From an uncultured Ruminococcus sp. (GTDB lineage Bacteria; Bacillota; Clostridia; Oscillospirales; Ruminococcaceae), in contig CAMWVV010000005.1 of assembly GCA_947177755.1 (NCBI GenBank), forward strand, positions 1 to 34,838: a DNA stretch of 34,838 nt, read 5' to 3'. Below, one piece after another: positions 1-13,013 of this stretch. A program made the translations under genes and the position numbers. The notes beneath the pieces were generated by a model. That model made no database searches. It saw only the letters and a program-made list of their open reading frames with translations, and was not told the origin of the DNA. Every line of letters begins with the position of its first letter. Position 1 is the stretch's first letter.

Positions 1-40
1 ATATAATTCTATATAACAGTTTTTGGTTTCATTTAATTCT

Positions 41-76
41 ATAAAAAAGTCCCCTGAAGTTTTTTCAGGGGAAGTC
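41..76 (-). terminator. Rho-independent terminator of the peptide cassette
   Basis: On the minus strand a CCCCTGA/TCAGGGG stem with an A-rich loop is followed by ACTTTTTT. It lies about 75 bases past the stop of the 143-residue membrane protein gene. It is a near copy of the asnA terminator at 947-978, so the cassette appears to use a duplicated asnA terminator. Confidence 0.85.
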
Positions 77-98
77 TCTTGTATTTAGCTTATTAATC

Positions 99-140
99 TT
101 AAAGAAATGTTATACCGTTTTCAGCACACTTTTCAATCAT
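99..140 (-). pseudogene. asnA 3'-end remnant
   Basis: Read on the minus strand, these 42 bases encode MIEKCAENGITFL and a stop. This matches the last residues of the intact asnA (MIEKCAENGITLL) with one amino-acid change. No upstream part of asnA is attached: at 141 the sequence switches to the 3' side of the membrane protein gene. It is therefore a duplicated scrap, not a gene. It indicates that the neighbouring cassette arrived with, or caused, duplication of the asnA end. Confidence 0.9.
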
Positions 141-150
141 AGGGATTTTT

Positions 151-582
151 TTAGTTTTTGGTCAATCTTACTGTTTTGTCAGGGGATACTTCTATGGTAT
201 AATCTTTGAGTACAGCTATAATCAGTGTAGCTCCGAAAGAGACTGCCAATATAATCATACTTACAGCCTGTGCAGTTTCGATTGAAAGTTCAGTTGAGAC
301 AGCAGTAACAGCAGGCACAACACCAACTATACCCATAATATTGCTTGTCCCACCAGTTAATGAAGTGGCAACAAGAGCAGTACCTGATAATGTAAGAGCA
401 GTGATTACAGCTCTTTTGGATTTTTTGGAAACTTTTGATAATTTTTCTAATTTTGCAAGTTTATGTGCTAATGGTTCTTTAACAACAATATTCTTTTCGC
501 CTCTGTTACAAGCGAACCTAAGTTCCTGCTTAGTACTTACATAAACTGCTGTATCTTTTTTGTTTTTTTTGATAAAACCCAT
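151..582 (-). CDS. Unknown 143-residue membrane protein, last gene of the peptide cassette
   Basis: I do not recognise the family. The N-terminal ~55 residues are basic and soluble, and include the stretch STKQELRFACNRGEKNIVVK. Residues ~58-78, 82-98 and 104-125 are hydrophobic and rich in Gly, Ala and Val, which gives two or three membrane segments. A short charged tail (KDYTIEVSPDKTVRL) follows. The start is supported by TAGGAG seven bases upstream. It lies 14 bases after the 38-residue peptide gene on the same strand and ends at a duplicated asnA terminator. Being third after two tiny hydrophobic peptides, it could be an immunity, export or partner membrane protein. That role is inference from context only. 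Confidence 0.75.
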   Translation of the reverse strand: MGFIKKNKKDTAVYVSTKQELRFACNRGEKNIVVKEPLAHKLAKLEKLSKVSKKSKRAVITALTLSGTALVATSLTGGTSNIMGIVGVVPAVTAVSTELSIETAQAVSMIILAVSFGATLIIAVLKDYTIEVSPDKTVRLTKN

Positions 583-596
583 ATGTTATCTCCTAT

Positions 597-713
597 TTAG
601 CATGATAAGCACACATTATCAGACATCATTATTTCAAGTATCTGATTAACTGCTTCAATAATTATTGAAGAGATTTTTACAATCTTTGAAACAAAGTTAA
701 AAATGTTTTCCAT
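597..713 (-). CDS. 38-residue amphipathic peptide
   Basis: A short open frame starts MENIFNFVSKIVKISSIII and ends in DNVCLSC. A strong AAAGGAG site lies 10 bases before the ATG, as good as those of the large genes around it. Residues 2-30 alternate Ile, Val and Phe with Lys, Asn, Ser and Glu as expected for an amphipathic helix. The two cysteines lie at positions 35 and 38. No signal peptide or double-glycine leader is seen. It lies between the 25-residue peptide and the 143-residue membrane protein with gaps of 33 and 14 bases, so the three are probably co-transcribed. The function is unknown; a membrane-active peptide is one possibility. Confidence 0.6.
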   Translation of the reverse strand: MENIFNFVSKIVKISSIIIEAVNQILEIMMSDNVCLSC

Positions 714-746
714 AAATTTCACACTCCTTTCGTAAAAATTTTAAAT

Positions 747-824
747 TCAGTCATCTTTGAACAACGCTAAAAGAGCCAATAAACAAGTACAGATTGCAAT
801 TATAGCTTCGAGAGTTTTTGACAT
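747..824 (-). CDS. 25-residue hydrophobic peptide, holin-like/type I toxin-like
   Basis: The frame begins MSKTLEAIIAICTCLLALLA and ends LFKDD. It has a short polar N-terminus, one hydrophobic helix of about 16 residues and a charged tail. AAAGGA precedes the ATG by about 11 bases. The layout resembles small holin-like or type I toxin peptides of Firmicutes, whose pattern is a polar start, the EA motif and then a Leu/Ile run. The resemblance is by eye only. It is the first gene after the promoter at 866-871, ahead of the 38-residue peptide and the 143-residue membrane protein. I saw no antisense RNA promoter on the opposite strand. Confidence 0.55.
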   Translation of the reverse strand: MSKTLEAIIAICTCLLALLALFKDD

Positions 825-865
825 AATATTTCAATCCTTTCAAATAGTTATTGTTTTTCATACAT

Positions 866-890
866 ATTATACAATATTTTTATTTGAACG
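866..890 (-). promoter_or_regulatory. Promoter of the peptide cassette
   Basis: TATAAT lies at 866-871 on the minus strand, about 42 bases ahead of the 25-residue peptide. The best -35 is weak: TGACGT at 888-893 with a 16-base spacer, overlapping the start of an (AT)n run. It lies just inside the right-hand repeat, so the cassette carries its own promoter. Confidence 0.5.
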
Positions 891-906
891 TCATATATAT
901 ATATAT

Positions 907-1045
907 ATATAATTCTATATAACAGTTTTTGGTTTTATTTAATTCAATAAAAAAGTCCCCTGCAGTTTTTTCAGGGGAAGTATTTTATATTAGCTTATTA
1001 ATCTTAAAGAAGTGTTATACCGTTTTCGGCACACTTTTCAATCAT
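907..1045. repeat. Right copy of ~140-base direct repeat (functional asnA 3' end)
   Basis: This is the partner of 1-140. Here the asnA codons continue into the intact gene, so this is the original copy or an equivalent one. An (AT)n run at 893-910 abuts its left edge. The repeat covers the last 14 asnA codons including the stop, the terminator and about 40 bases beyond it. Confidence 0.9.
947..978 (-). terminator. Rho-independent terminator of asnA
   Basis: A CCCCTG/CAGGGG stem with an A-rich loop is followed on the minus strand by ACTTTTTTA. It begins 26 bases after the asnA stop. Confidence 0.88.
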
Positions 1046-2017
1046 TTCGTCGCTCCATATTGAAGACTGTACTTCACCTATGTGTGCTTTTTCGAGCAGG
1101 AACATACAAAGTCTTGACTGTCCGATACCTCCGCCGATTGTGAGAGGAAGTGTGCCGTCTGCAATCATCTTGTGGTAGTCGTACTGCATTCTGTCCTCCG
1201 CACCTGCTTCAGCAAGCTGTTTTTTAAGGGAAGTTTCGTCAACACGTATACCCATTGAAGAAATTTCAAGGGCATTGTCAAGAACGTCGTCCCACACGAA
1301 AATATCGCCGTTAAGTGACCAGTCGTCATAGTCGGGAGCTCTTCCGTCGTGTTTCTGACCGCTTGCAAGCAGTCCGCCAATCTGCATTATGAAAACGGTC
1401 TTGTGTTCCTTGGTTATGAGGCGTTCACGTTCTCTTGGTGTTTTGTCGGGGAACATATCTTCAAGTTCCTGAGTGGTGATAAAGAAAACATCTTTACATA
1501 CATCTCCTGCAATAACAGGATAACGCAGACCAACCTTTCTTTTTACGTAAGCAACAGCCTTTACAACGCTTTTTACTGTCTCTTTAAGAAACTCAACGTT
1601 GCGTTGTTCACGGGTGATAACCTTTTCCCAGTCCCACTGGTCAACGAAAATCGAATGAGTGTTATCTGTGTCGTCGTCACGTCTTATAGCGTTCATGTCG
1701 GTATAGATGCCCTCGCCTGCGTTGTAGCCGTAACGGTAGAGAGCCATTCTCTTCCACTTTGCGAGTGACTGGACAACTTCAGCTTCACTTCCGCCGATTT
1801 CCCTGATAGTAAAATCAACTTTTCTTTCAACGCCGTTGAGGTCGTCATTGATACCGCTTCCTTTTCTTACGATAAGCGGAGCGGACACACGGTCAAGAGT
1901 AAGGGCAAAAGAAAGTGCCTGCTGGAAAACGTCCTTGATGTACTTGATAGCGTGCTGGGTTTCTCTTAAATTGAGGGCTGGTTTATAACCCTCTGGAATA
2001 TACAGCGATTTTGACAT
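1004..2017 (-). CDS. asnA: Aspartate--ammonia ligase
   Basis: AsnA makes asparagine from aspartate, ammonia and ATP in the cytoplasm. The 337-residue length fits the family (E. coli AsnA is 330). The sequence is family-like throughout: YIPEGYKPALNLRETQHAIK near the start, LDRVSAPL, the GVERKVDF segment, VDQWDWEKVI, and the C-terminal GGGIGQSRLCMFLLEKAHIG typical of class II aminoacyl-tRNA-synthetase-like folds. AAAGGA precedes the ATG. It follows asnS by 105 bases on the same strand with no strong promoter between them, so the T-box ahead of asnS probably controls both. Its 3' end is duplicated at 99-140. Confidence 0.96.
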   Translation of the reverse strand: MSKSLYIPEGYKPALNLRETQHAIKYIKDVFQQALSFALTLDRVSAPLIVRKGSGINDDLNGVERKVDFTIREIGGSEAEVVQSLAKWKRMALYRYGYNAGEGIYTDMNAIRRDDDTDNTHSIFVDQWDWEKVITREQRNVEFLKETVKSVVKAVAYVKRKVGLRYPVIAGDVCKDVFFITTQELEDMFPDKTPRERERLITKEHKTVFIMQIGGLLASGQKHDGRAPDYDDWSLNGDIFVWDDVLDNALEISSMGIRVDETSLKKQLAEAGAEDRMQYDYHKMIADGTLPLTIGGGIGQSRLCMFLLEKAHIGEVQSSIWSDEMIEKCAENGITLL

Positions 2018-2122
2018 AAAATATCATTCCTTTACTGTTTATTTAATCAGGAAACAGCGTCATTGATGCTTCCCGATGCTGTCATATTTATATTTTGCGG
2101 AACTATGATTTATTCGGAAAAA

Positions 2123-3496
2123 TTATCTGATACTGCCGACTGTTCTCGGATAAAGAATAACGTCACGGATATTTGACATACCTGTTGTATACATGATAAG
2201 TCTTTCAAATCCGAGACCGAAACCGCCGTGCGGTACAGAGCCGAATTTTCTTAAATCAAGATAATCTGAATACAAATCAAGATTCATATTTCTTTCGTTC
2301 ATTGCGGCAACAAGCTTGTCGTAATCTGCCTCACGTTCACTTCCGCCGATAATTTCGCCGACCCCTGGGACGAGAAGGTCAACAGCTGCAACAGTTTTTC
2401 CGTCGGGATTCTGTTTCATATAGAAAGACTTGATTTCTTTCGGATAGTCTGTAACGAAAACAGCCTTTCTGAAAACTTTTTCAGAAATATATCTTTCGTG
2501 TTCTGTCTGGAGGTCACAACCCCATTCAACAGGGTAAACAAAGTTTTCGCCTGACTCCTGAAGAAGCCTGATAGCCTCTGTGTATGTTACTTTTCCGAAA
2601 TCGTGTGAAATGAGTTCTTCAAGACGTGCAACAAGACCCTTTTCAAAATGTGCGTCAAAGAATTTCATATCATCGGGACAGGTGTCAAGAAGTTCACGGA
2701 TAACAGTTTTCAGCATATCTTCGGCAATTTCAATAACGTCGGGAAGTTCGGCAAAAGCTATTTCGGGTTCAATGTGCCAGAACTCAGCAAGATGTTTGGG
2801 GGTGTTGCTGTTTTCCGCACGGAAACTTGGTCCAAACGTATAAATTTTACCCATAGCCATAGCAGCCACTTCACCCTCAAGCTGTCCCGAAACGGAAAGT
2901 CCTGCACGTCTGCCGAAAAAGTCGTTTGAATAGTATTCCTCTTCGTTCTTGTACTCGTCTGAGTAACCTATTGTTGTTACATTGAACATTTCTCCTGCAC
3001 CCTCGCAGTCACTACCTGTGATAAGGGGAGTGTTTACATAGACATAGTTATTGTTCTGAAAATATTTGTGTATTGCCTGTGCAAGTACCGAACGCACACG
3101 CCATACAGCATTGAATGTGTTTGTACGTCCTCTGAGGTGTGGCATTGAACGCAGGTACTCCATTGAACAGCCTTTTTTCTGTAACGGATAGTCTGACGGA
3201 CAAACTCCGAGAATTTCAACGCCTGACGGTACAGTGTTGATTTCAACAGTGTTGTTTCTTCCCTCAACAACAGTACCTGTTACTTTTACGGCAGTTCCCA
3301 CACGTGGCTCTTTATAATCAGCGTCAGCCGACTTTTCAACAACTACCTGAATGTTTTTGAGTGAAGTTCCGTCATTTACCTCAACGAATGCAACACTCTT
3401 TGAGTTTCTGGAAGTACGCACCCAGCCGCATACAGTAATTTCCTTGCCTGTAAAATCGTGATTGTTCAGAAGTACTTTGATATCAGTATGTTTCAT
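2123..3496 (-). CDS. asnS: Asparaginyl-tRNA synthetase
   Basis: This 457-residue class II synthetase charges tRNA-Asn. The N-terminal OB-fold anticodon-binding domain includes TVCGWVRTSRNSKSVAFVEV. The catalytic domain shows motif 2 (FRAENSNTPKHLAEFWHIEPE) and motif 3 (GGFGLGFERLIMY). I chose the ATG at 3496 because GGAAG lies upstream and the next residues are the usual KHTDIKVLL start. A frame extending to 3577 only reads through the T-box terminator hairpin and is not protein. Transcription starts upstream of a T-box with an Asn specifier, so expression should rise when tRNA-Asn is uncharged. asnA follows in the same unit. Confidence 0.96.
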   Translation of the reverse strand: MKHTDIKVLLNNHDFTGKEITVCGWVRTSRNSKSVAFVEVNDGTSLKNIQVVVEKSADADYKEPRVGTAVKVTGTVVEGRNNTVEINTVPSGVEILGVCPSDYPLQKKGCSMEYLRSMPHLRGRTNTFNAVWRVRSVLAQAIHKYFQNNNYVYVNTPLITGSDCEGAGEMFNVTTIGYSDEYKNEEEYYSNDFFGRRAGLSVSGQLEGEVAAMAMGKIYTFGPSFRAENSNTPKHLAEFWHIEPEIAFAELPDVIEIAEDMLKTVIRELLDTCPDDMKFFDAHFEKGLVARLEELISHDFGKVTYTEAIRLLQESGENFVYPVEWGCDLQTEHERYISEKVFRKAVFVTDYPKEIKSFYMKQNPDGKTVAAVDLLVPGVGEIIGGSEREADYDKLVAAMNERNMNLDLYSDYLDLRKFGSVPHGGFGLGFERLIMYTTGMSNIRDVILYPRTVGSIR

Positions 3497-3520
3497 AAAA
3501 ATCTTCCTTTCGTCTTTAAA

Positions 3521-3553
3521 ATAAAAAACCGTCCTGCATAAAAAACAGGACGG
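3521..3553 (-). terminator. T-box terminator hairpin of asnS
   Basis: CCGTCCTG/CAGGACGG stems with a T-rich loop are followed on the minus strand by TTTTTTAT, about 25 bases before the asnS start. The 5' arm lies just after the AGGTGGTACCACG antiterminator element, so the two structures compete in the usual T-box way. Confidence 0.88.
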
Positions 3554-3779
3554 GAATAAAAATTCTCGTGGTACCACCTGAATTACCGCCTTGAAAAGAC
3601 AGTCACTCCTGACCGTTTAACGCACGGAAAACGTTTCACCTACTCGCTTCTAAGCTTTCAGGTCACTGCTCGGGAGTGTTATTCACACGGCTTCTGATAT
3701 GCGGATTTCAGCATTTTCCGCACTCTCTGGGAACGTCTGACCGTGTTACTTCTCTCCGTCAAGGCATTTACTGTAATTC
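3521..3779 (-). promoter_or_regulatory. T-box riboswitch, tRNA-Asn specific
   Basis: The conserved T-box sequence AGGTGGTACCACG lies at 3567-3579 on the minus strand, followed by the terminator at 3521-3553. Upstream is a long leader with an AGAGAGTG-type bulge near 3730. A Stem I arm reads GTGTGAATAACACTCC, where AAC (3678-3680) is in the expected specifier position for asparagine. Uncharged tRNA-Asn should stabilise the antiterminator and allow asnS and asnA transcription. Confidence 0.93.
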
Positions 3780-3808
3780 ATTCTAACATTTTTCTGAGAA
3801 TATGTCAA
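3780..3808 (-). promoter_or_regulatory. Promoter of the T-box-asnS-asnA unit
   Basis: On the minus strand TTGACA (3803-3808), a 17-base spacer and TAGAAT (3780-3785) form a strong SigA-type promoter just ahead of the T-box leader. The stretch 3809-3915 back to the hsdS stop holds no gene and no clear terminator. Confidence 0.85.
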
Positions 3809-3915
3809 TAGGAAATAAATTTAAAATTATTTTAACTTATATTCTGTGATATGACACTTCTTTAATTGATATATACCAGTTTATTGACTTCACTTCTGTT
3901 TTGTTACATTCATAA

Positions 3916-5100
3916 CTACGAACTTTTAATTTTAAATTGTAAAAGTTTGTCTCTGTAGTATTCGTATTGTTTTTGTCTTGCGTTTATTTCGGCAGGGAGT
4001 CCGCTTGTGAGGTCGTTGCAGAGGGTATCAAAGCGGTCAAGTATTTTTACTATTCGCTCCTGCTCCTCTATCGGCGGTACAGGAATTTTTATTTTTGCTA
4101 AATCATCATTATACAACCTTGCTATTGTACCACCTTCAGAAATTTTCCACGGATTTGTCTGATAAAAATAATATAGATATTTATTTAATACAATTTTTTC
4201 ATCATTATCAATCCAAACTATATTTGAATCCTGAAAATATGCAGGTTTTCCATCAAATATGACTGTTCTGCCGATTGTACCAGAAGCTGAAATAAGAACA
4301 TCACTTTTTTTAGGATATGAATATTTTTGTTTGTACTCGTTGAACAAGTCAGAAGAAATATAGGCGTTGGCTGTTTTTCCGAATGTTCCTATTTTGTAAA
4401 ATGGTACTCCGCTTTCAGAATTAGTCTGATTTTTCATAATTCGTTTGCACATTGAAACTCTGCCAATTTCTCCCAGTGTTTTTAATTCAACATCATCACC
4501 AAAATCCAATAGCTTATTACGATAATATGAATACTGTTTTTTGCGGAGCGTAATTTCTTGATTAAGTTTCTCTATAAGTTCCGTAAAATTGCCAAGTATC
4601 CTGACAATTTCACGCTGTACCTCTAACGGCGGAAGTTTTATCATTATTTTACCTATATCAACTAAATTAATTTTAATTGGCACAGCATTTACAAGTGTTC
4701 GTTTATATAACTCTTTTCTGCCATATTTACTTTCAATATAATATTTTAAATATTTGCTATTCAATACCTCAGTATTTGGACGTAACAAGGCAAGTGAAAC
4801 ATAATAAGCAACAGAAATATTCTTTTCAACTACTGAACAAGTGCCAATATTTCCTATTCTTGTCATAAAAATATCATTTATCTGAGGCTTTATTTTATAT
4901 TTATTATAGTCGTCCTCAGAAATGTATTTTTCTGTCGCATAAATATTATTTATATTTTCTACACTTATAAATTTAACTCCATTTTCTGTATAATTCGGAG
5001 TCTGATGTGTTCCGTCATAAATATTACATATTGTATTTAATCTGATATACTCCACACCGTCGGGACAAAGTTCATTTATCAAATCATTAAGTCTACTCAT
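3916..5100 (-). CDS. hsdS: Type I restriction-modification specificity subunit, last gene of the thi operon
   Basis: HsdS sets the DNA target of a type I restriction-modification complex. The 394-residue protein has the two-domain layout. Target-recognition domain 1 covers about residues 15-160, with a central helix region from about 165 (EIVRILGNFTELIEKLNQEI). Target-recognition domain 2 covers about 205-345, with a C-terminal helix region (IVKILDRFDTLCNDL). Both helix regions end in YYRxKLL(D/Q)F repeats. Only six bases separate it from the thiC stop. No promoter is visible, and its only SD-like bases (AGAGAAG) lie inside the thiC end, so it is probably transcribed with the thi operon. The recognition domains are clearly more AT-rich than thiC, which suggests transfer. 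No hsdM or hsdR lies in the window. Confidence 0.92.
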   Translation of the reverse strand: MSRLNDLINELCPDGVEYIRLNTICNIYDGTHQTPNYTENGVKFISVENINNIYATEKYISEDDYNKYKIKPQINDIFMTRIGNIGTCSVVEKNISVAYYVSLALLRPNTEVLNSKYLKYYIESKYGRKELYKRTLVNAVPIKINLVDIGKIMIKLPPLEVQREIVRILGNFTELIEKLNQEITLRKKQYSYYRNKLLDFGDDVELKTLGEIGRVSMCKRIMKNQTNSESGVPFYKIGTFGKTANAYISSDLFNEYKQKYSYPKKSDVLISASGTIGRTVIFDGKPAYFQDSNIVWIDNDEKIVLNKYLYYFYQTNPWKISEGGTIARLYNDDLAKIKIPVPPIEEQERIVKILDRFDTLCNDLTSGLPAEINARQKQYEYYRDKLLQFKIKSS

Positions 5101-5106
5101 TTAATC

Positions 5107-6420
5107 TTACTTCTCTGAGCAGAATTCTACTTTTTCGCCGTTGAGAATCATATTAGTTGTACGGACTGCACACATCTTTCCGCACATTGAACACGTGTGG
5201 CGGTCTGACGGCGGTGTACTTTCAAAGTATTCACGAGCCTTGTCGCCGTCAATGGCAATATCAAACATTTTTTTCCAGTCAACCGCATGACGTGCTTCTG
5301 CCATAGCGTTGTCGGGGTCTGTTGCGTGCGGAATACCTTTGGCAATATCTGCGGCGTGTGCAGCAATACGGCTTGCAATAATACCCTCTTTAACGTCGTT
5401 TATGTCGGGAAGTCTGAGATGTTCGGCAGGAGTTACATAACAAAGGAAGTCTGCACCGCTTGCCGCTGCTATTGCACCGCCTATTGCAGAAGTTATGTGG
5501 TCATATCCTGGAGCGATGTCCGTTACAAGAGGTCCTAACACATAAAACGGTGCATTATGACAGATTCTCTTCTGGATTTTCATATTTGCGGCGATTTCAT
5601 TCATTGCCATGTGTCCAGGACCTTCAACCATTACCTGCACTTCCTTAGCCCACGCACGTTCAGTCAAAGCACCAAGTTCAATAAGTTCGGAAATCTGTCC
5701 TGCGTCTGTCGAGTCGTCAATACAACCTGGACGGAGAGCGTCGCCAAGACTTATTGTACAGTCGTATTCACGGAGAATGTCAAGAACATCATCATAGTAT
5801 TCATAAAACGGATTTTCGTTGCCTGTCATCATCATCCATGCAAACAAAAGTGAACCGCCCCTTGAAACAATATTCATTTTACGCTTGTCACGGCGGAAAG
5901 CCTCAACAGCACGGCGGTTTATTCCTGCATGAATGGTCATGAAGTCCACACCCTCTTCCGCATGGGCTTTAACGACTTTCAGAAAATCTTCCGCAGTAAT
6001 TTCCAGCAGGTCTTTTTCAAGATAACCGATAGCGTCGTACATCGGAACAGTTCCAATCATAGCAGGCGACTTTTCTATAAGCTGTTTACGGAAAGTATTT
6101 GTCTTGCCGTAATTGCTCAAATCCATAATCGCTTCCGCACCAAACTTTATAGCCATGTCAACTTTTTTCATTTCGTTTTCATAGTTGTTGCAGTCTCCTG
6201 AAATTCCTAAATTAACATTTATTTTAGTCCTCATGCGTGAACCTATTCCCTCAGGTGAAATTGACTTATGATTCACGTTGCATGGTATACATACCTCACC
6301 TTTTGCAACAAGTCCGCAGAGTTCCTGCTCACTGATATACTCTTTCTTTGCAATTATTTTCATTTCGGGGGTAATTATGCTTTTTTTTGCAGCTTCCATT
6401 TGTGTACTGTAATTTCTCAT
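5107..6420 (-). CDS. thiC: Phosphomethylpyrimidine synthase
   Basis: ThiC converts aminoimidazole ribotide to HMP-phosphate, the pyrimidine of thiamine, using a [4Fe-4S] cluster and S-adenosylmethionine. At 437 residues it is the short form without the long N-terminal extension of proteobacterial and plant enzymes. Recognisable blocks are [58 protein letters not shown] and [21 protein letters not shown]. The cluster motif near the C-terminus reads CSMCGKMC (Cys410, 413, 417), so the last spacing is three residues where the textbook motif is CX2CX4C. The gene starts directly after the thiD stop and is followed six bases later by hsdS. Confidence 0.97.
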
Positions 6421-7206
6421 TTATTCAGTTCCTTTCATGTGATTTAAAGGTCCGTTTCCGTGACCTATATCAAGCATTGCACTAAGACAGGAAGTTATAT
6501 ATTCCTTTGCAAGTCTTACGCTTTTTTCAAGTGTATATCCCTTTGCAAGATTCGATGCTATCGCACTTGACAACGTACAGCCTGTACCGTGTGTATTAGG
6601 GTTATTAATTTTTATGCCCTCAAACCATATTTTACTTTTATTTTTCGTATACAGAAAATCGTCTGCTGTATTCAGACTGTGACCGCCTTTTACAAGCACC
6701 GCACAACCGTATTTTTCATATATGAATTTAGCTGTCTGCTCCATATCTTCCGCACATGATATTTTTATTCCTGTTATAAGTTCGGCTTCCGGAATATTAG
6801 GAGTTACAAGCGTTGCAATCGGTAAAAGCATATTTTTTATCATTTCATAGGCTTCTTTAGTGCTTAAACTGCTTCCACTCGTTGCAACGTATACAGGGTC
6901 AACAACTATATTTTCTGCTTTCCAGTATTTAAGACGTTCTGCAACAACTTCTGCCGTTTCAGCATTCGGAATCATTCCTGTTTTTACGGAATCGGGGCGT
7001 ATATCACTGAAAATCATATCAATCTGCTTTGCTGTAAAATCAGTCGGAATTTCGTGTATACCCATTACACCTGTTGTATTCTGTGCCGTAAGTGCAGTTA
7101 TCACACTCATTGCATAAACTCCGTGTATTGTCATTGTTTTAATGTCCGCTTGAATACCTGCTCCGCCGGAGCTGTCACTTCCTGCTATTGTAAGTACCTT
7201 TTTCAA
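6421..7206 (-). CDS. thiD: Hydroxymethylpyrimidine/phosphomethylpyrimidine kinase
   Basis: ThiD phosphorylates HMP and HMP-phosphate to HMP-pyrophosphate, the substrate of ThiE. The 261-residue ribokinase-fold protein begins MKKVLTIAGSDSSGGAGIQA, the family signature. It continues with the GVYAMSVITALTAQNT segment and the C-terminal anion-hole motif NPNTHGTGCTLSSAIASNLA. Length and ends are normal. It lies three bases after the 85-residue membrane protein gene and abuts thiC, so it is tightly within the operon. Confidence 0.97.
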   Translation of the reverse strand: MKKVLTIAGSDSSGGAGIQADIKTMTIHGVYAMSVITALTAQNTTGVMGIHEIPTDFTAKQIDMIFSDIRPDSVKTGMIPNAETAEVVAERLKYWKAENIVVDPVYVATSGSSLSTKEAYEMIKNMLLPIATLVTPNIPEAELITGIKISCAEDMEQTAKFIYEKYGCAVLVKGGHSLNTADDFLYTKNKSKIWFEGIKINNPNTHGTGCTLSSAIASNLAKGYTLEKSVRLAKEYITSCLSAMLDIGHGNGPLNHMKGTE

Positions 7207-7209
7207 TTA

Positions 7210-7467
7210 TCATACTCCTTTCTGTTGCGGAGGCAGAATAAATTTCGGATAATCGCTGTACACATCAAAACAAAGTATTCTGACAGTTATTCCGGTATTG
7301 TAGCCATATCTTCCTTCCGAATCAAATGCTATTGAGTGATGTTTTGTTACACTCCATAATACAGCATTATATTTGATTGTTCCACCGTCTCTGTAACATT
7401 CTTTAATCGGTACAAGCAGAACTATCGCAATAATCAAAGGAATAATTATTTTAAGTTTCTTTTTCAT
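7210..7467 (-). CDS. Small membrane-anchored or secreted protein inside the thi operon
   Basis: This 85-residue protein has a basic start (MKKKLK), one hydrophobic segment (IIIPLIIAIVLLVPI, residues ~7-21), and an exported soluble part beginning KECYRDGGTIKYNAVLWSVT. The DGGT-x-YxAxxxxVxKxH pattern recalls a set of short uncharacterised clostridial proteins with one membrane segment and a small beta-rich domain. I cannot name it. Its ATG overlaps the thiE stop in an ATGA arrangement, and its stop lies three bases before thiD. It must therefore be co-expressed and translationally coupled with thiamine synthesis. No transport or catalytic motif is visible, so a thiamine role is unproven. Confidence 0.75.
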   Translation of the reverse strand: MKKKLKIIIPLIIAIVLLVPIKECYRDGGTIKYNAVLWSVTKHHSIAFDSEGRYGYNTGITVRILCFDVYSDYPKFILPPQQKGV

Positions 7468-8087
7468 AACTTTGTCCTCAGATGTTCCGCTGAAAGCCTT
7501 ATATCTTCCTGTGCAAACAATGCTGATACTACTGCTATCCCAGATTGTCCGCAGTCTTTTATTTCGTGGAGATTTTCAAGACTTATTCCGCCTATCGCAA
7601 CAACAGGGATGTCAACACTGTTACAGATTTGTGTCAGTTTTTCTGGTGTAATGCGTATAGCATTGGTTTTGGTAGGCGACGGGAAAACTGCTCCAACACC
7701 TAAATAGTCCGCACCGTCTGCCTGTGCTTTCTGTGCCTGTTTAACGGTCTTTGCAGTTGCACCTATTATAAAATTACCGCTGACGTGTTTTCTTATTTCC
7801 GCAACTTCTGTGTCCTCGATTCCCACGTGTACACCGTCAGCACCGCTATCTAATGCCACTCTGTAATCATCATTAATTATAAGCGGTACACCGTACTTAT
7901 GACAGACTTCACATATTTTTTTTGCCCTTGAAACGTACTCATCAAAGCTTATATTTTTTTCACGCAACTGAACGCACGTTACACCGCTCTGTATAGCCTG
8001 TTCAACTGCTTCGGTCAGACTTTTTCCTTTTAAATACGTTCTGTCTGTAACTGCGTAAAGACTAAGCATATCTTTATTAAACTTCAA
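7464..8087 (-). CDS. thiE: Thiamine-phosphate synthase
   Basis: ThiE couples HMP-pyrophosphate to thiazole phosphate to give thiamine phosphate. The 207-residue TIM barrel shows the expected motifs: YAVTDRTYL, VQLREKN, LIINDDYRVAL, DGVHVGIED, IGATAKT, GVGAVFPSPTK and VVAIGGI. All pyrophosphate and thiazole-phosphate binding blocks look intact. Its start overlaps the end of tenI by 11 bases, and its stop overlaps the next small gene, so it is part of a coupled series. Confidence 0.96.
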   Translation of the reverse strand: MKFNKDMLSLYAVTDRTYLKGKSLTEAVEQAIQSGVTCVQLREKNISFDEYVSRAKKICEVCHKYGVPLIINDDYRVALDSGADGVHVGIEDTEVAEIRKHVSGNFIIGATAKTVKQAQKAQADGADYLGVGAVFPSPTKTNAIRITPEKLTQICNSVDIPVVAIGGISLENLHEIKDCGQSGIAVVSALFAQEDIRLSAEHLRTKL

Positions 8088-8676
8088 TGTCTGTCACTTC
8101 CTTTCTTAACTGCTTTATATATTCGTCAGGATTTTCGCAGGTCATTAATCCACTCATTATGCAAGCACCGTCAGCACCTGCCTTTGCCACCTGATTAATG
8201 TTTTTACTGTTTATTCCACCAATTGCGTACACGGGAATTTTTACCGCATTACACACCTGACTTAAAAATTCAAGCCCACGAGGTGCAAGACCTTTTTTGC
8301 AGTCTGTTTCAAAAATATGACCAGCTATAACATAATTTACACCCATTTTTTCAGCCTCTACAGCTTCTTCAACCGAATGAACAGAAGCACCTACAAGATT
8401 AATAAAATTCATATCTTTCAGACTGATATGCTGTAACATTGGCATTGTCATATGAATATTGCTGAAAATTTCAGGGTGAAAATACATACTGCACGGCACG
8501 TTGTATTTATTGCTTATGTCAAGAACTTTAAACGCAAATTTCACATATTCCCCGTCACTGCAATTTTTGTCACGGAATATTATCCTGTCAGGCTTTGCAG
8601 AGGCTATTTTTTCGATTCTTGTCAGAAAATCTTCCTTACAAAGTTTTCTGTCCGTAACGCATATAATCTTAAACAT
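8077..8676 (-). CDS. tenI: TenI-type thiazole tautomerase
   Basis: This is a 199-residue ThiE-superfamily TIM barrel. It lacks the ThiE QLREK and GAVFPSPTK motifs and instead has IIFRDKN and GHIFETDCKKGLAPRGL. The latter is close to the TenI signature, where the His belongs to the thiazole tautomerase site. TenI aromatises the ThiG product for use by ThiE. Having it next to a complete thiE supports division of labour rather than redundancy. The ATG at 8676 (MFKIICVTDRK) fits the family start better than one four codons upstream. Either start overlaps the thiH end, and no good ribosome site is visible, so translational coupling is likely. It could be a second ThiE, but the motif argues against that. 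Confidence 0.85.
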   Translation of the reverse strand: MFKIICVTDRKLCKEDFLTRIEKIASAKPDRIIFRDKNCSDGEYVKFAFKVLDISNKYNVPCSMYFHPEIFSNIHMTMPMLQHISLKDMNFINLVGASVHSVEEAVEAEKMGVNYVIAGHIFETDCKKGLAPRGLEFLSQVCNAVKIPVYAIGGINSKNINQVAKAGADGACIMSGLMTCENPDEYIKQLRKEVTDIEV

Positions 8677-9919
8677 AAATATAATCATTCAGCACAGGTT
8701 GTAAACCCTCATCGGACATATCCTTATACATCTGCTGAAAACTTCTGCCGTCGTTTATTTCAAACTGTTCATCACCTGCTGAATCGTTCTCCTTTCCGTT
8801 GTACTTACTTTCATGGTCGCCGATACCCGTCGAAACCCCAGCCGACACCTTTGTTGCACATATCTTTACTATACCGTTTCTGAAACTCTCGCTTTCCCTC
8901 GACGATACAGTAATATTACAGAACGGCAGAAAAATTCTGTAAGCACAAAGTACCTGACAAAGCTGTTTTTCATGAACATCAAGCGGATTTATTTCGCCGT
9001 TGTTTATAATGGGTCGCAGTCTCGGACATGAAAGGGATATTTCGGCATGGGGATATTTTCGCTGTAAATGATAAACGTGCAATGCACTTGCGAAAGCATC
9101 TTTTCTGAAATCGGAAAGCCCGAGCAGTGCAGAACAGGCTATACCTCTCATACCGCCCATTAATGCACGTTCCTGTGCCTCGAAACGATATGGGAATACT
9201 CTTTTATGTCCCATAAGGTGTAACTGTTCATAACGGTCACTGTCATATGTCTCCTGAAATACTGTAACATAATCAACACCGCATTCGTGGAGATATTTAT
9301 ATTCATCAGTATTGACGGGGTAAATCTCAACGCCTACCATGCGGAAATACTTCATTGCAAGTTTACACGCCTCTCCTATATACTTCACTCCGCTCTTTGA
9401 ACGGCTTTCACCTGTAAGTATCAGAATTTCTTCCATACCGCTCTCCGCAATGACCTGCATTTCCCTTTCAATCTGTTCCATACTTAGTTGCATACGCTTT
9501 ATATCATTGTAGCAGTTGAAACCACAGTATACACAGTAATTTTCACAATAGTTCGCAATATACAAAGGTGTAAACAAATACAAAGTATTCCCGAAATGCT
9601 TTCTTGTTTCAAGTCTTGCACGTTCCGCCATCTGTTCAAGAAAAGGCTCTGCCGACGGTGACAAAAGTGCTTTGAAGTCCTCAACCGTACAGCGTTCATG
9701 TTCAAGAGCAGATTTAACATCATTAGCCGTATATAAATTATAGTCGTAGTCATTCATAGCGGTTATTACTTTTTCACGCATATCGGAATCAATCTTCTCC
9801 ATGCCGTCCATGTACTCCATGTGGTTTGTACGGACAGACGGATTATTTTCAAGTTCATGTTTTTTCTTTAAAGCTCTTTCGGAAAGTTTGTCAGAATCCA
9901 CAAAATAATTATTTTCCAT
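8669..9919 (-). CDS. thiH: 2-iminoacetate synthase (tyrosine lyase)
   Basis: ThiH is a radical SAM enzyme that cleaves tyrosine to dehydroglycine (2-iminoacetate) for the thiazole ring, the oxygen-independent alternative to ThiO. The CX3CX2C cluster motif is Cys125, Cys129 and Cys132 (NYCENYCVYCGF). Further family blocks are ILILTGESRSKSG, VGVEIYPVNTDEY, TVFQETYDSDRYEQLH and GLSDFRKDAFA. At 416 residues it is longer than E. coli ThiH (377); most of the difference is N-terminal. The gene follows thiG by six bases and overlaps tenI. Confidence 0.96.
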   Translation of the reverse strand: MENNYFVDSDKLSERALKKKHELENNPSVRTNHMEYMDGMEKIDSDMREKVITAMNDYDYNLYTANDVKSALEHERCTVEDFKALLSPSAEPFLEQMAERARLETRKHFGNTLYLFTPLYIANYCENYCVYCGFNCYNDIKRMQLSMEQIEREMQVIAESGMEEILILTGESRSKSGVKYIGEACKLAMKYFRMVGVEIYPVNTDEYKYLHECGVDYVTVFQETYDSDRYEQLHLMGHKRVFPYRFEAQERALMGGMRGIACSALLGLSDFRKDAFASALHVYHLQRKYPHAEISLSCPRLRPIINNGEINPLDVHEKQLCQVLCAYRIFLPFCNITVSSRESESFRNGIVKICATKVSAGVSTGIGDHESKYNGKENDSAGDEQFEINDGRSFQQMYKDMSDEGLQPVLNDYIYV

Positions 9920-9925
9920 ATTATT

Positions 9926-10696
9926 TCACCTCAGAAATCCCGTAAGCGAATCAGATGCAGAAGCTCCCCTTGTGAGAACACGTCCAAGTCCCGACAGATA
10001 CGCTTTTCTTCCTGCTTCCACTGCCTGTCTGAATGCCTCAGCCATTACAGGCAAGTCACCTGCTGTCGCAAGGGCAGTATTGCACATTACAGCCGCCGCA
10101 CCCATTTCCATAGCTTCACAAGCCTGTGACGGTCTGCCTATTCCTGCATCGACTATAATGGGCAGGTCGATTTCGTCAATAAGAATCTGTATGAAGTCCC
10201 TTGTTGAAAGTCCCTTGTTTGAACCTATCGGCGAAGCCAACGGCATTACGGCAGACGCTCCTGCGTTTACAAGGTCACGAGCGGTGTACAAATCAGGGTA
10301 CATATACGGCATTACTACAAAACCATCTTTCGCAAGAATTTCAGTAGCCTTTACTGTTTCCTGATTGTCGGGAAGAAGATATTTACTGTCACGCATAATT
10401 TCTATTTTTACAAAGTCACCGCACCCCAGTTCTCTTGCAAGACGTGCGATTCTTACAGCCTCGTCAGCGTTTCTTGCTCCCGAGGTGTTCGGAAGAAGCG
10501 TAACACCTGACGGGATATAGTCAAGAATATTTTCATGTTCCTTTGAGTTGGCACGACGTACAGCAAGCGTTATTATTTCCGCACCTGCATATTTAACCGC
10601 CGATTCAATAAGATTAAGTGAATATTTTCCCGAACCCAGTATAAATCTTGAATTAAATTCATGTCCGCCGATTATAAGCTTATCACTGTTATTCAT
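9926..10696 (-). CDS. thiG: Thiazole synthase
   Basis: ThiG assembles thiazole phosphate from 1-deoxy-D-xylulose 5-phosphate, dehydroglycine and ThiS-thiocarboxylate. The 256-residue TIM barrel has the N-terminal FILGSGKY, the ITLAVRR strand, [16 protein letters not shown], the catalytic lysine Lys97 in [16 protein letters not shown], and [20 protein letters not shown]. The [15 protein letters not shown] end is typical. It lies 12 bases after thiF with GGAGA ahead of the ATG. Confidence 0.97.
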
Positions 10697-10708
10697 AAAA
10701 AAATCTCC

Positions 10709-11344
10709 TTATACATCATATTTTCCCGAAATTATTCTTATTATTGTATGTGCCTGATGACCTGCACATACCATTACCCTTGACGAATAAAGTCCTGTTC
10801 CGTCGGAAACGTCGCTTTCACCGTCACCGCAGATATATAACTTTTTCATAACCCTGCGTGTTTTTATAGTATTCGCTGAATCAATTCCAGCCATTCCCGA
10901 ACCCGATACAAGATATTTTTCAGGAAGCTTCTCCAGTACACAGTTGACCAGCACCGCTTTTGCCTCGGCACTGTCAAATGCTTCACAGATAATATCATCA
11001 TCTTTCAGAAGTTCGGATATATTTGTTTCGTCAAGCCTTACACAGTCCGTAACAATTTCACAGTACGGTGCAATATGTGACAACGTTTCTTTGAGAGCAT
11101 CGGTCTTGTACATTCCGAGCTGTTCGGGAAAATACTGCTGACGGTTAAGGTTTGAGATGTCAACTCTGTCAAAGTCAACTATGTGAATACGTCCCACTCC
11201 TGCACGTGCCAATGCTATAGCGATATTTGAACCAAGTCCGCCTATTCCGCACACCGCAACAGATGCGGATTTTACTTTTTTCTGGAAATCTGCTCCGTGA
11301 CGTTCCGCAAGTGCATTGTACATTTCAGATTCTGAAGGTATCAT
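10709..11344 (-). CDS. thiF: ThiS adenylyltransferase, short ThiF form
   Basis: ThiF activates the C-terminus of ThiS with ATP before sulfur transfer. The 211-residue E1-like protein has the nucleotide-binding GIGGLGSNIAIALARAGVG, the D-x-D-x(3)-N-x-NRQ block (DFDRVDISNLNRQQYF), and GSGMAGIDSANTI. It lacks the CXXC zinc pairs of MoeB and E. coli ThiF, which fits the short thiF subfamily found beside thiS, thiG and thiH in anaerobes. It lies five bases after thiS. Confidence 0.93.
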   Translation of the reverse strand: MIPSESEMYNALAERHGADFQKKVKSASVAVCGIGGLGSNIAIALARAGVGRIHIVDFDRVDISNLNRQQYFPEQLGMYKTDALKETLSHIAPYCEIVTDCVRLDETNISELLKDDDIICEAFDSAEAKAVLVNCVLEKLPEKYLVSGSGMAGIDSANTIKTRRVMKKLYICGDGESDVSDGTGLYSSRVMVCAGHQAHTIIRIISGKYDV

Positions 11345-11559: not shown

Positions 11560-12830
11560 TCAAAGTTCTTTCTTTCCTGTCACATACTCAAAGATAAGTG
11601 ACTTCTTGTATTCTTCAATAATTTTAATTTGTTGTTTTTTTCAGAAATAATTTTGTCAATTGTTTTGCATTTTTTGTCAAGATAATCTGCTATTTGTTGT
11701 TGTTCTTCAATTGGTGGCAATACTATTGACAAATTATTTATAAACTGAGAGGGTACTCTTTTTAAACCTCCCATTCCTGTCATGCTAAAAACAGCTTTTT
11801 CTATAAATCCACTATTTTGCAACCAATAAAATATGAACATACAATTTATTGCAAACGGTCTTATAACATAAAGTTCAGAACTTCCTAACCCAATACCTGA
11901 TGTAATGTTATCCATAATTGCAATATTTCCATTTTCAAAACATGGGGTAACTTTGGCAAATACAATATCTCCCGATTGAAAAGGTGTAAGTGGCTTAGGA
12001 ATTTCAGAATATTTTTTAGAGTTAGAAATATAATGTCCATTTTTTATATATTCCATGGGCAGATATTCAATTATTGTTTCATCAGAAATTTTTGAAAAAT
12101 CACAATATGGTGATAGTTTAGCAATATACTTTAATTTTTGTATTTCCCAGTGTTCTGGAATATCACCTATCCATTCAATCCCGCTGTCCTTCATCTCCAC
12201 ATCAGGATTAAGTCCCTTTGTTACTGCTTCGGTAATGACAGAACGCTTGTATTGTTCAAGGATTTCGATTTGTTTTTTCAGCTTTGATATAAGAGAGTCT
12301 ATTTCGGTGCATTTATCGTTAAGAAAAAAGGCTATTTTTTGCTGTTCTTCAATCGGTGGTTCAAATATCATAAGTTTAGAAAATTCTGAAAAATTCAATC
12401 CTTGCCGAACACCATTTCCCATATTATAAAATACTTTCATAACATCATATGTGTGCAATAAATAATAAAAATATTCAGAATTTATATTTTTAATTGTTTT
12501 CATAGCAATATATGCAGAAGTAATAATACCATGTTCTTTAGAAATTGCTGTCCTTAGACTTTTTTTGTCATTCTGTAAGTCTGTAGGACGAATAATAATA
12601 TCGTCTTTTTCAATAATGTTATACGTATTAAAACTTTCAGGTAGTAAACCGTTATTTGAATTTATATTTTTTCTGACAATTTTTCCATAGCTTAAAGAAA
12701 GCAGATTTTTTTCAAGTCCTAAGAAATTTTTATTTTTTCGTTCTGTAAAATAAGAACAAATCGGGTGAACATTCCAATGTTCCGGAATTTCTCCTATCCA
12801 CTCAATACCGCTATCTTTCATTTTTCCCAA
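11560..12830 (-). CDS. hsdS: Type I restriction specificity subunit with a frameshifted C-terminus, first gene after the TPP riboswitch
   Basis: This is a two-domain HsdS with tandem halves. Each half begins MKDSGIEWIG(E/D)IPEHW and ends in an EEQQ(K/Q)IA-type helix. As the bases stand, the frame ends at 11580 with an atypical tail (KLKLLKNTRSHLSLSM). Shifting by one base at the A7 tract (11635-11641) instead reads KIIEEYKKSLIFEYVTGKKEL and stops at 11560, which is the canonical family ending. Thus the gene is one A short of the usual frame at a slippage-prone run. The start is probably the TTG at 12830, preceded by GAGGTGA; ATG at 12821 is the alternative. It lies between the riboswitch terminator and thiS, with no own promoter. 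Its sequence is AT-rich relative to the thi genes. Confidence 0.88.
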
Positions 12831-12877: not shown

Positions 12878-12917
12878 GAATTAAATACATAAAAGTATAT
12901 ACTTATACAAATATATT

Positions 12918-13013
12918 TTCAGGCTTCCTACGTTGGCATTATCCAAATCAGGTCAAAGGGTCGGAACGCATAGTCCCCTCTCAGTGTGTCTGCACGCTCC
13001 CCTGTCTTGAAAT
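12918..13013 (-). promoter_or_regulatory. TPP (thiamine pyrophosphate) riboswitch
   Basis: The conserved core is clear on the minus strand: ACAGGGGAGC, then CTGAGAGGG, then GACCCTTTGACCTGATTTGGATAATGCCAACGTAGGAAGC. P1 pairs TTTCA at the 5' end with TGAAA at the 3' end. The terminator at 12846-12877 follows, so TPP should switch off transcription of everything downstream, including the two hsdS genes that flank the thi genes. Confidence 0.96.

Follow-up and report, generated by a model that had tools for sequence, protein, structure and literature searches.

A three-gene small-peptide cassette between copies of the asnA tail in a Ruminococcus genome: probable scars of recombination resembling an insertion footprint

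In an uncultured Ruminococcus sp., a short cassette encoding two tiny peptides and a membrane protein lies behind asnA, between two copies of the asnA 3' end and its terminator. Did the cassette bring the second gene tail with it as it was inserted, or was the tail copied by recombination after the cassette was already in place? The window, which is the whole stretch of DNA analysed (34,838 nucleotides), is the whole of contig C5 of the source genome (G000), a 2.6-Mb draft in 239 contigs, and position 1 is therefore a contig end. The features at this end, with the basis of each, are as follows.

1 to 140, minus strand: left copy of the asnA 3' end (13 codons and the stop), terminator and cassette-side spacer (repeat alignment, sequence)
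50 to 72, minus strand: left-copy terminator hairpin (fold of -16.5 kcal/mol, z -3.8)
141 to 150, minus strand: what is left of the cassette's own terminator, its left arm, abutting the asnA tail (alignment to the sister species L005, folds)
151 to 582, minus strand: gene 3, predicted membrane protein of 143 amino acids, phrog_25580 family (ORF, profile match, low-confidence model)
597 to 713, minus strand: peptide 2, 38 amino acids, amphipathic, with a C-terminal NVCxS (ORF, L005 comparison)
747 to 824, minus strand: peptide 1, 25 amino acids, with one hydrophobic segment, ending in KDD (ORF, sequence)
866 to 894, minus strand: promoter-like ATGACG-17-TATAAT, with -35 at 889 to 894 and -10 at 866 to 871 (sequence)
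907 to 1045, minus strand: right copy, with the true asnA 3' end, terminator and spacer (repeat alignment, folds)
1004 to 2017, minus strand: asnA, aspartate-ammonia ligase, intact (Pfam AsnA, E 7.7e-104)

The direct repeat consists of two blocks, positions 1 to 85 against 907 to 991 (93% identity, spacing of 906) and positions 85 to 140 against 990 to 1045 (96% identity, spacing of 905). A global alignment over 140 columns contained eight substitutions and one 1-base gap. In each copy, the last 13 codons of asnA and the stop are followed by a hairpin and then by a T run. None of 200 shuffles folded as well as the left-copy hairpin, and none of 200 folded as well as the right-copy hairpin (-13.0 kcal/mol, z -4.5). 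A whole asnA continues from the right copy only. Both the pair of repeats of about 140 bases with asnA tail and terminator, and the joining of the intact gene to the right copy, were thus as the original prediction had described them. Since the cassette precedes the left copy, the possibility that the left repeat is a piece of a second complete asnA was ruled out.

The 766-base segment between the repeats (141 to 906) contains the promoter-like sequence and open reading frames of 25, 38 and 143 amino acids, each preceded by a purine-rich ribosome site as read by eye. This supported the view that the segment is a self-contained unit with its own promoter, genes for two tiny peptides and one for a membrane protein. 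Peptide 2 is counted here from the ATG at 713; the ORF list gives 41 amino acids from a GTG at 722. The G+C content of the cassette is 31%, compared with 45% for asnA and 40% for the window. The hydrophobic segment of peptide 1 has a mean KD of 2.4 over 19 residues. The gene 3 protein is predicted to consist of a strand-helix-strand N terminus, a basic stretch, hydrophobic helices and C-terminal strands. In the sequence to the right of position 1, none of the three cassette ORFs matched a recombinase or integrase, or a transporter or exporter, in Pfam or NCBIfam, and no integrase was recognised by eye among window ORFs of at least 100 amino acids. Rfam searched at E values up to 1 over positions 1 to 5200 returned only a T-box and a U7 match below the gathering score.

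A search with gene 3 placed the cassette in 2 of 125 genomes of the genus. This count was reached after a third, weak match (G038) had been set aside as chance (37% identity over 57 amino acids, with an internal stop, in a repetitive stretch). Peptide 2 gave strong matches in the same two genomes and weak ones, with E of about 0.07, in G015 and G045. asnA itself was found in 110 of the 125 genomes at E up to 1e-50, and the asnA regions compared were those of 20 further relatives plus G095 (n = 21). In 12 of the 13 closest relatives asnA is directly followed by orf104 or at least its start, with one of the 12 (G122) counted on 69 matched amino acids only; the exception, among the matches listed, is G116. 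A further close genome (G072), whose asnA runs off its contig, was left out. These comparisons supported the conclusion that the cassette is accessory.

The second carrier is the sister species L005 ('MAG: Ruminococcus sp. isolate SC0360_S7_1', apparently the same record as G095). Its order is asnA, orf104, terminator, TTGACA-17-TATAAT, peptide 1, peptide 2, gene 3, the cassette's own terminator, a kinase-like gene (named by eye) and, on the opposite strand, thiC. Between the window and L005, identity is 77% for gene 3 and 55% for peptide 2; the peptide 1 homologue (4726 to 4836 in L005) has ATT/ATA at the expected ATG start. The block of terminator, spacer and promoter behind asnA matches between the two, with orf104 intervening in L005. 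Alignment with the window revealed no asnA-tail copy at the L005 cassette. A 20-nt direct repeat of 90% identity, beginning from the orf104 stop and with a spacing of 903, flanks the cassette in L005, and this short two-copy repeat may be a chance match. The original prediction had read the asnA-tail repeats as a product of insertion or recombination at the asnA 3' end. Recombination at that site was upheld, but a footprint of cassette insertion was not, since L005 has the cassette without the tail copy. Related strains all carrying the cassette at this site without the duplication had been named in advance as evidence against the predicted history; one such relative, L005, was found, and the prediction was contradicted in part.

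The cassette terminator points the same way. Its hairpin is whole in L005 (-13.9 kcal/mol), while the junction in the window folds at 0 kcal/mol. The left repeat cuts the cassette terminator in half, and the asnA terminator takes its place. Since the cassette terminator is reduced to its left arm and the junction is unfolded, the left asnA terminator now probably ends the cassette transcript. The repeat also holds cassette-side spacer, so the duplication would have reached from asnA into the region upstream of the cassette. With its junction inside the cassette terminator hairpin and the cassette-side spacer included, the tail copy looks like a later duplication. That this was a tandem duplication, with a second cassette beyond position 1, is a serious possibility that we place somewhat below an even chance. 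Such a duplication would put a second promoter and cassette just past position 1. The assembled source genome yielded no second cassette. Three high-numbered contigs of that genome are 2531, 2611 and 2862 bases long, and if contig numbering follows size, the assembly may have dropped an isolated unit shorter than 1 kb.

Copied gene tails were also seen elsewhere in the group. In G005 (L043, reverse complement of 8436 to 9052), there are three copies of the thiC tail with its terminator, one of them the real end, and CRISPR-like repeats (named by eye), also three in number, lie around these copies. Copying of a gene tail together with its terminator is therefore not special to the cassette.

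We then compared synonymous divergence between the window and L005. Gene 3 had a dS of 0.40, below the values of asnA (0.81; Fisher p 0.003), asnS (1.18; p 1e-6) and thiC (1.48; p 1e-8). The dN/dS of gene 3 was about 0.35. In the same comparison, a dN of 0.26 and a dS of 0.20 did not show purifying selection on peptide 2. The low dS of the cassette points to horizontal exchange, and the simplest reading is that the cassette was transferred after the two species had parted; codon-use effects may contribute to the contrast. This reading rests on two carrier genomes.

On the other side of asnA, the window contains the following features.

2123 to 3496, minus strand: asnS (the ORF extends open to 3577, with 3496 read as the likely start)
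3543 to 3771: T-box leader ahead of asnS (Rfam)
3847 to 3866, plus strand: stump of an asnA 3' end in inverted orientation, lying between asnS and hsdS (similarity to asnA ends)
3916 to 5100, minus strand: hsdS, type I specificity subunit, flanking the inverted block (profile match, E 6e-97)

In all 12 relatives having both genes on the examined stretch, asnA and thiC are convergent; nine of the 21 relatives had no thiC on that stretch. In the window, thiC, hsdS, asnS and asnA all run in the same direction. The block of asnS, asnA and cassette is thus inverted relative to all 12 comparable relatives, an inversion that adjoins the tail copy and is additional to the account given in the original prediction. 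Both the inversion and the repeats come from a single assembly, a fragmented draft.

The stump at 3847 to 3866 probably marks the inversion boundary. It is identical at 18 of 20 positions to the asnA end of L005 and lies in the orientation expected of an original asnA. Against the L005 tail, 0 of 2000 mononucleotide shuffles scored as well, and against the window's own tail 1 of 2000 did; in the opposite orientation there was no signal (342 and 1178 of 2000 shuffles). A 16-nt pattern of the asnA end, allowing at most one mismatch, had three matches in the window compared with a mean of 0.01 in 100 shuffles. By plain BLAST in a wider search, the stump reached an E of only 0.067. In relatives, a gene for an ADP-ribosylglycohydrolase (Pfam ADP_ribosyl_GH) lies upstream of asnS, and the alignment of L005 with the window starts at the extreme end of this gene and runs through asnA. 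In the source genome the ADP-ribosylglycohydrolase gene is on another contig (C43), where the roughly 145 bases after it, at the contig end, do not match the asnS leader.

Relatives differ in what the gap between asnA and thiC contains: a kinase-like gene, hsdS, CRISPR-like repeats, or a regulator together with a nitroreductase-like gene (all but hsdS named by eye, among the matches listed). In G115, hsdS lies beside thiC in the gap, an order that fits the state before the inversion. The window has a second hsdS at 11580 to 12830, and neither hsdM nor hsdR was recognised by eye in its ORF list. Several other contigs of the source genome carry sequence matching an L005 hsdS, as if hsdS genes were being shuffled. 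A TPP riboswitch (12908 to 13013) shares its strand with the thiamine genes (5107 to 11344, named by eye), with the second hsdS separating the two.

The history that we consider probable starts with an exchanged small-peptide cassette lying in a gap prone to recombination; duplication of the tail and an inversion came later. It joins what was observed: the repeats, a cassette free of the duplication in L005, a dS that is lower in the cassette, a terminator cut in two and, in this assembly, an inverted gene order. The order in which the events fell is one that we infer. In this group of Ruminococcus, the asnA-thiC gap would be a site of accessory genes that recombines readily, and the three-gene cassette would have arrived behind asnA through horizontal exchange. 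The lineage of the window would have lost orf104 and duplicated a stretch that runs from the asnA tail across the terminator and into the cassette, leaving the cassette to end in a second asnA tail and terminator instead of its own. The block of asnS, asnA and cassette would also have been inverted, with a third asnA tail left as the stump at 3847 to 3866.

Two other histories were weighed. The left repeat and the inverted order could be an assembly artefact, produced by mis-joined strain variants in the draft. The large number of contigs and the position of the left repeat, at the contig end within a TA run, would suit an artefact. However, the eight substitutions and the gap between the repeat copies mean that one sequence was not simply read twice, the stump lies at the place and in the orientation expected from a real inversion, and the contig with the ADP-ribosylglycohydrolase gene independently lacks the asnS leader. 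We consider an artefact unlikely. Alternatively, the cassette could be an insertion unit that travels with the tail and terminator of a host gene, inserts at a gene 3' end and so re-creates the tail; such a unit would need no integrase of its own and could form tandem units. The long direct repeats around the window cassette are what it would leave, the 20-nt repeat in L005 also flanks a cassette (if it is not chance), and a gene tail with its terminator is repeated in G005 too. But the L005 cassette has no asnA-tail copy, the window repeats include cassette-side spacer and so are no plain target duplication, and the cassette ORFs gave no recombinase match. Such a unit is improbable, and the further proposal that an integrase-free unit of this kind spreads itself, re-creating host gene tails and building tandem arrays with an undescribed system of two peptides and a phrog_25580 membrane protein, is very improbable indeed. 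We retain exchange followed by tail duplication and inversion.

To approach the function of the cassette, we analyzed the family of gene 3. Its product matched phrog_25580 over nearly the full length (E 2.4e-11; residues 13 to 140, profile positions 4 to 122 of 128), and the L005 homologue matched at E 4.2e-9. Four aligned family members share T17, E20, L38, K50, L125, D127 and Y128 among other residues; gene 3 is 22 to 23% identical to two aligned clostridial relatives. The profile was found in 3 of 125 genus, 2 of 396 family, 2 of 394 order and 3 of 391 class genomes, counts that include the source genome each time and, at genus level, a match in G083 that was set aside as chance (a match of 48 profile positions, with surrounding ORFs that look unrelated by eye). 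A match in G1004 covers profile positions 22 to 95 within a 990-amino-acid frame. Relatives were found in two other clostridial genomes and in Treponema, Citrobacter, Klebsiella and other enterobacterial plasmids. The plasmid relatives look alike by eye and three match the profile; for the Klebsiella one, no PHROG matched at E up to 0.01. Plasmid searches returned four records for the L076 relative and five, its own included, for the Citrobacter protein. Neither of these matched phages, gene 3 itself matched no phages, plasmids or viral contigs, a further search with the alignment in place of the single protein was also without a match, and peptide 2 matched no viral contigs. A literature search for phrog_25580 by name found no paper.

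The neighbours of the phrog_25580 relatives differ from those in the cassette, and no peptide 1 or 2 was seen beside them by eye; one plasmid member comes after a very hydrophobic ORF of 70 amino acids. Near distant gene 3 relatives in two clostridial genomes there is a similar protein of 107 amino acids (L075, 2200 to 2523; L076, 1958 to 2281), which in one of them had a weak Pfam YibX match below the cut-off (E 0.003). The structure model of gene 3, of low confidence (mean pLDDT 61.2), suggests a strand-helix-strand unit, hydrophobic helices and a C-terminal strand pair. It matched no PDB fold at E up to 0.001, and no solved relative was found by sequence (best E 0.27). Neither peptide had a significant family match, the best being VEGFR-2_TMD (E 0.035) and phrog_27976 (E 0.068).

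Our tentative view, which we hold as a possibility and not as an expectation, is that peptides 1 and 2 act in the membrane with the gene 3 product as their membrane-bound partner, either an immunity protein or a modulator. More specific versions are more doubtful. In type I toxin-antitoxin systems, an antisense RNA represses a small membrane toxin. The cassette could be a module of this type, or an anti-phage one, whose target is the membrane of its own cell. In favour are peptide 1, which consists of one short hydrophobic segment, the hsdS in the gap of G115, the hsdS flanking the block in the source genome and the plasmid relatives of gene 3. On the other hand, the JukA match of gene 3 (PADLOC) is weak (E 0.013, 13.1 bits) and absent from L005 and the five other family members scanned, and JukA and LeoBC assignments (E 0.006 to 0.16) were rejected. 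Apart from the sub-threshold U7 match, no Rfam family was found in the cassette, a search that an undescribed RNA would escape. We regard a role of this kind as rather unlikely.

A comparably doubtful version is a leaderless-bacteriocin-like system of two peptides, with gene 3 as the immunity protein. The peptides are short, with no leader recognised by eye, and they precede a membrane protein with a net charge of +11. PMC13262744 gives a similar description of DdD, the immunity protein of enterocin DD14, as cationic, membrane-bound and without homologues of defined function. The cassette peptides, however, have net charges of -1 (peptide 1) and -2 (peptide 2) in the window and of 0 and +2 in L005, they belong to no significantly matched family, and no exporter gene was found among the cassette ORFs. 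The cassette resembles leaderless bacteriocins of the enterocin DD14 type in that a cationic membrane protein accompanies two short peptides, but no sequence relation was found, and transporter genes such as those of the enterocin DD14 cluster (PMC13262744) were not found among the three cassette ORFs.

Short peptide operons such as this one are easily missed in annotation. The presence of the cassette in two species, with synonymous divergence below that of its neighbours, suggests that it spreads, and a phrog_25580-type protein of unknown function gains context from its two peptide partners. The asnA-thiC gap also exemplifies how gene tails and terminators copied during chromosomal rearrangement can mimic an insertion footprint.

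Elements that integrate at gene ends contain an integrase or recombinase and duplicate the gene tail at every insertion. Among the three cassette ORFs no recombinase match was found, and in the one relative available for comparison, L005, the cassette is present without a duplicated tail. We consider the feature real and its history ordinary, with recombination scars in place of an insertion footprint. Compared with SGI1-type elements, the cassette has no integrase match and no identified attachment site, and the sister species has no tail copy. What it shares with the SGI1 variants, which are described as integrating at the trmE 3' end, is the 3' end of a host gene on both sides.
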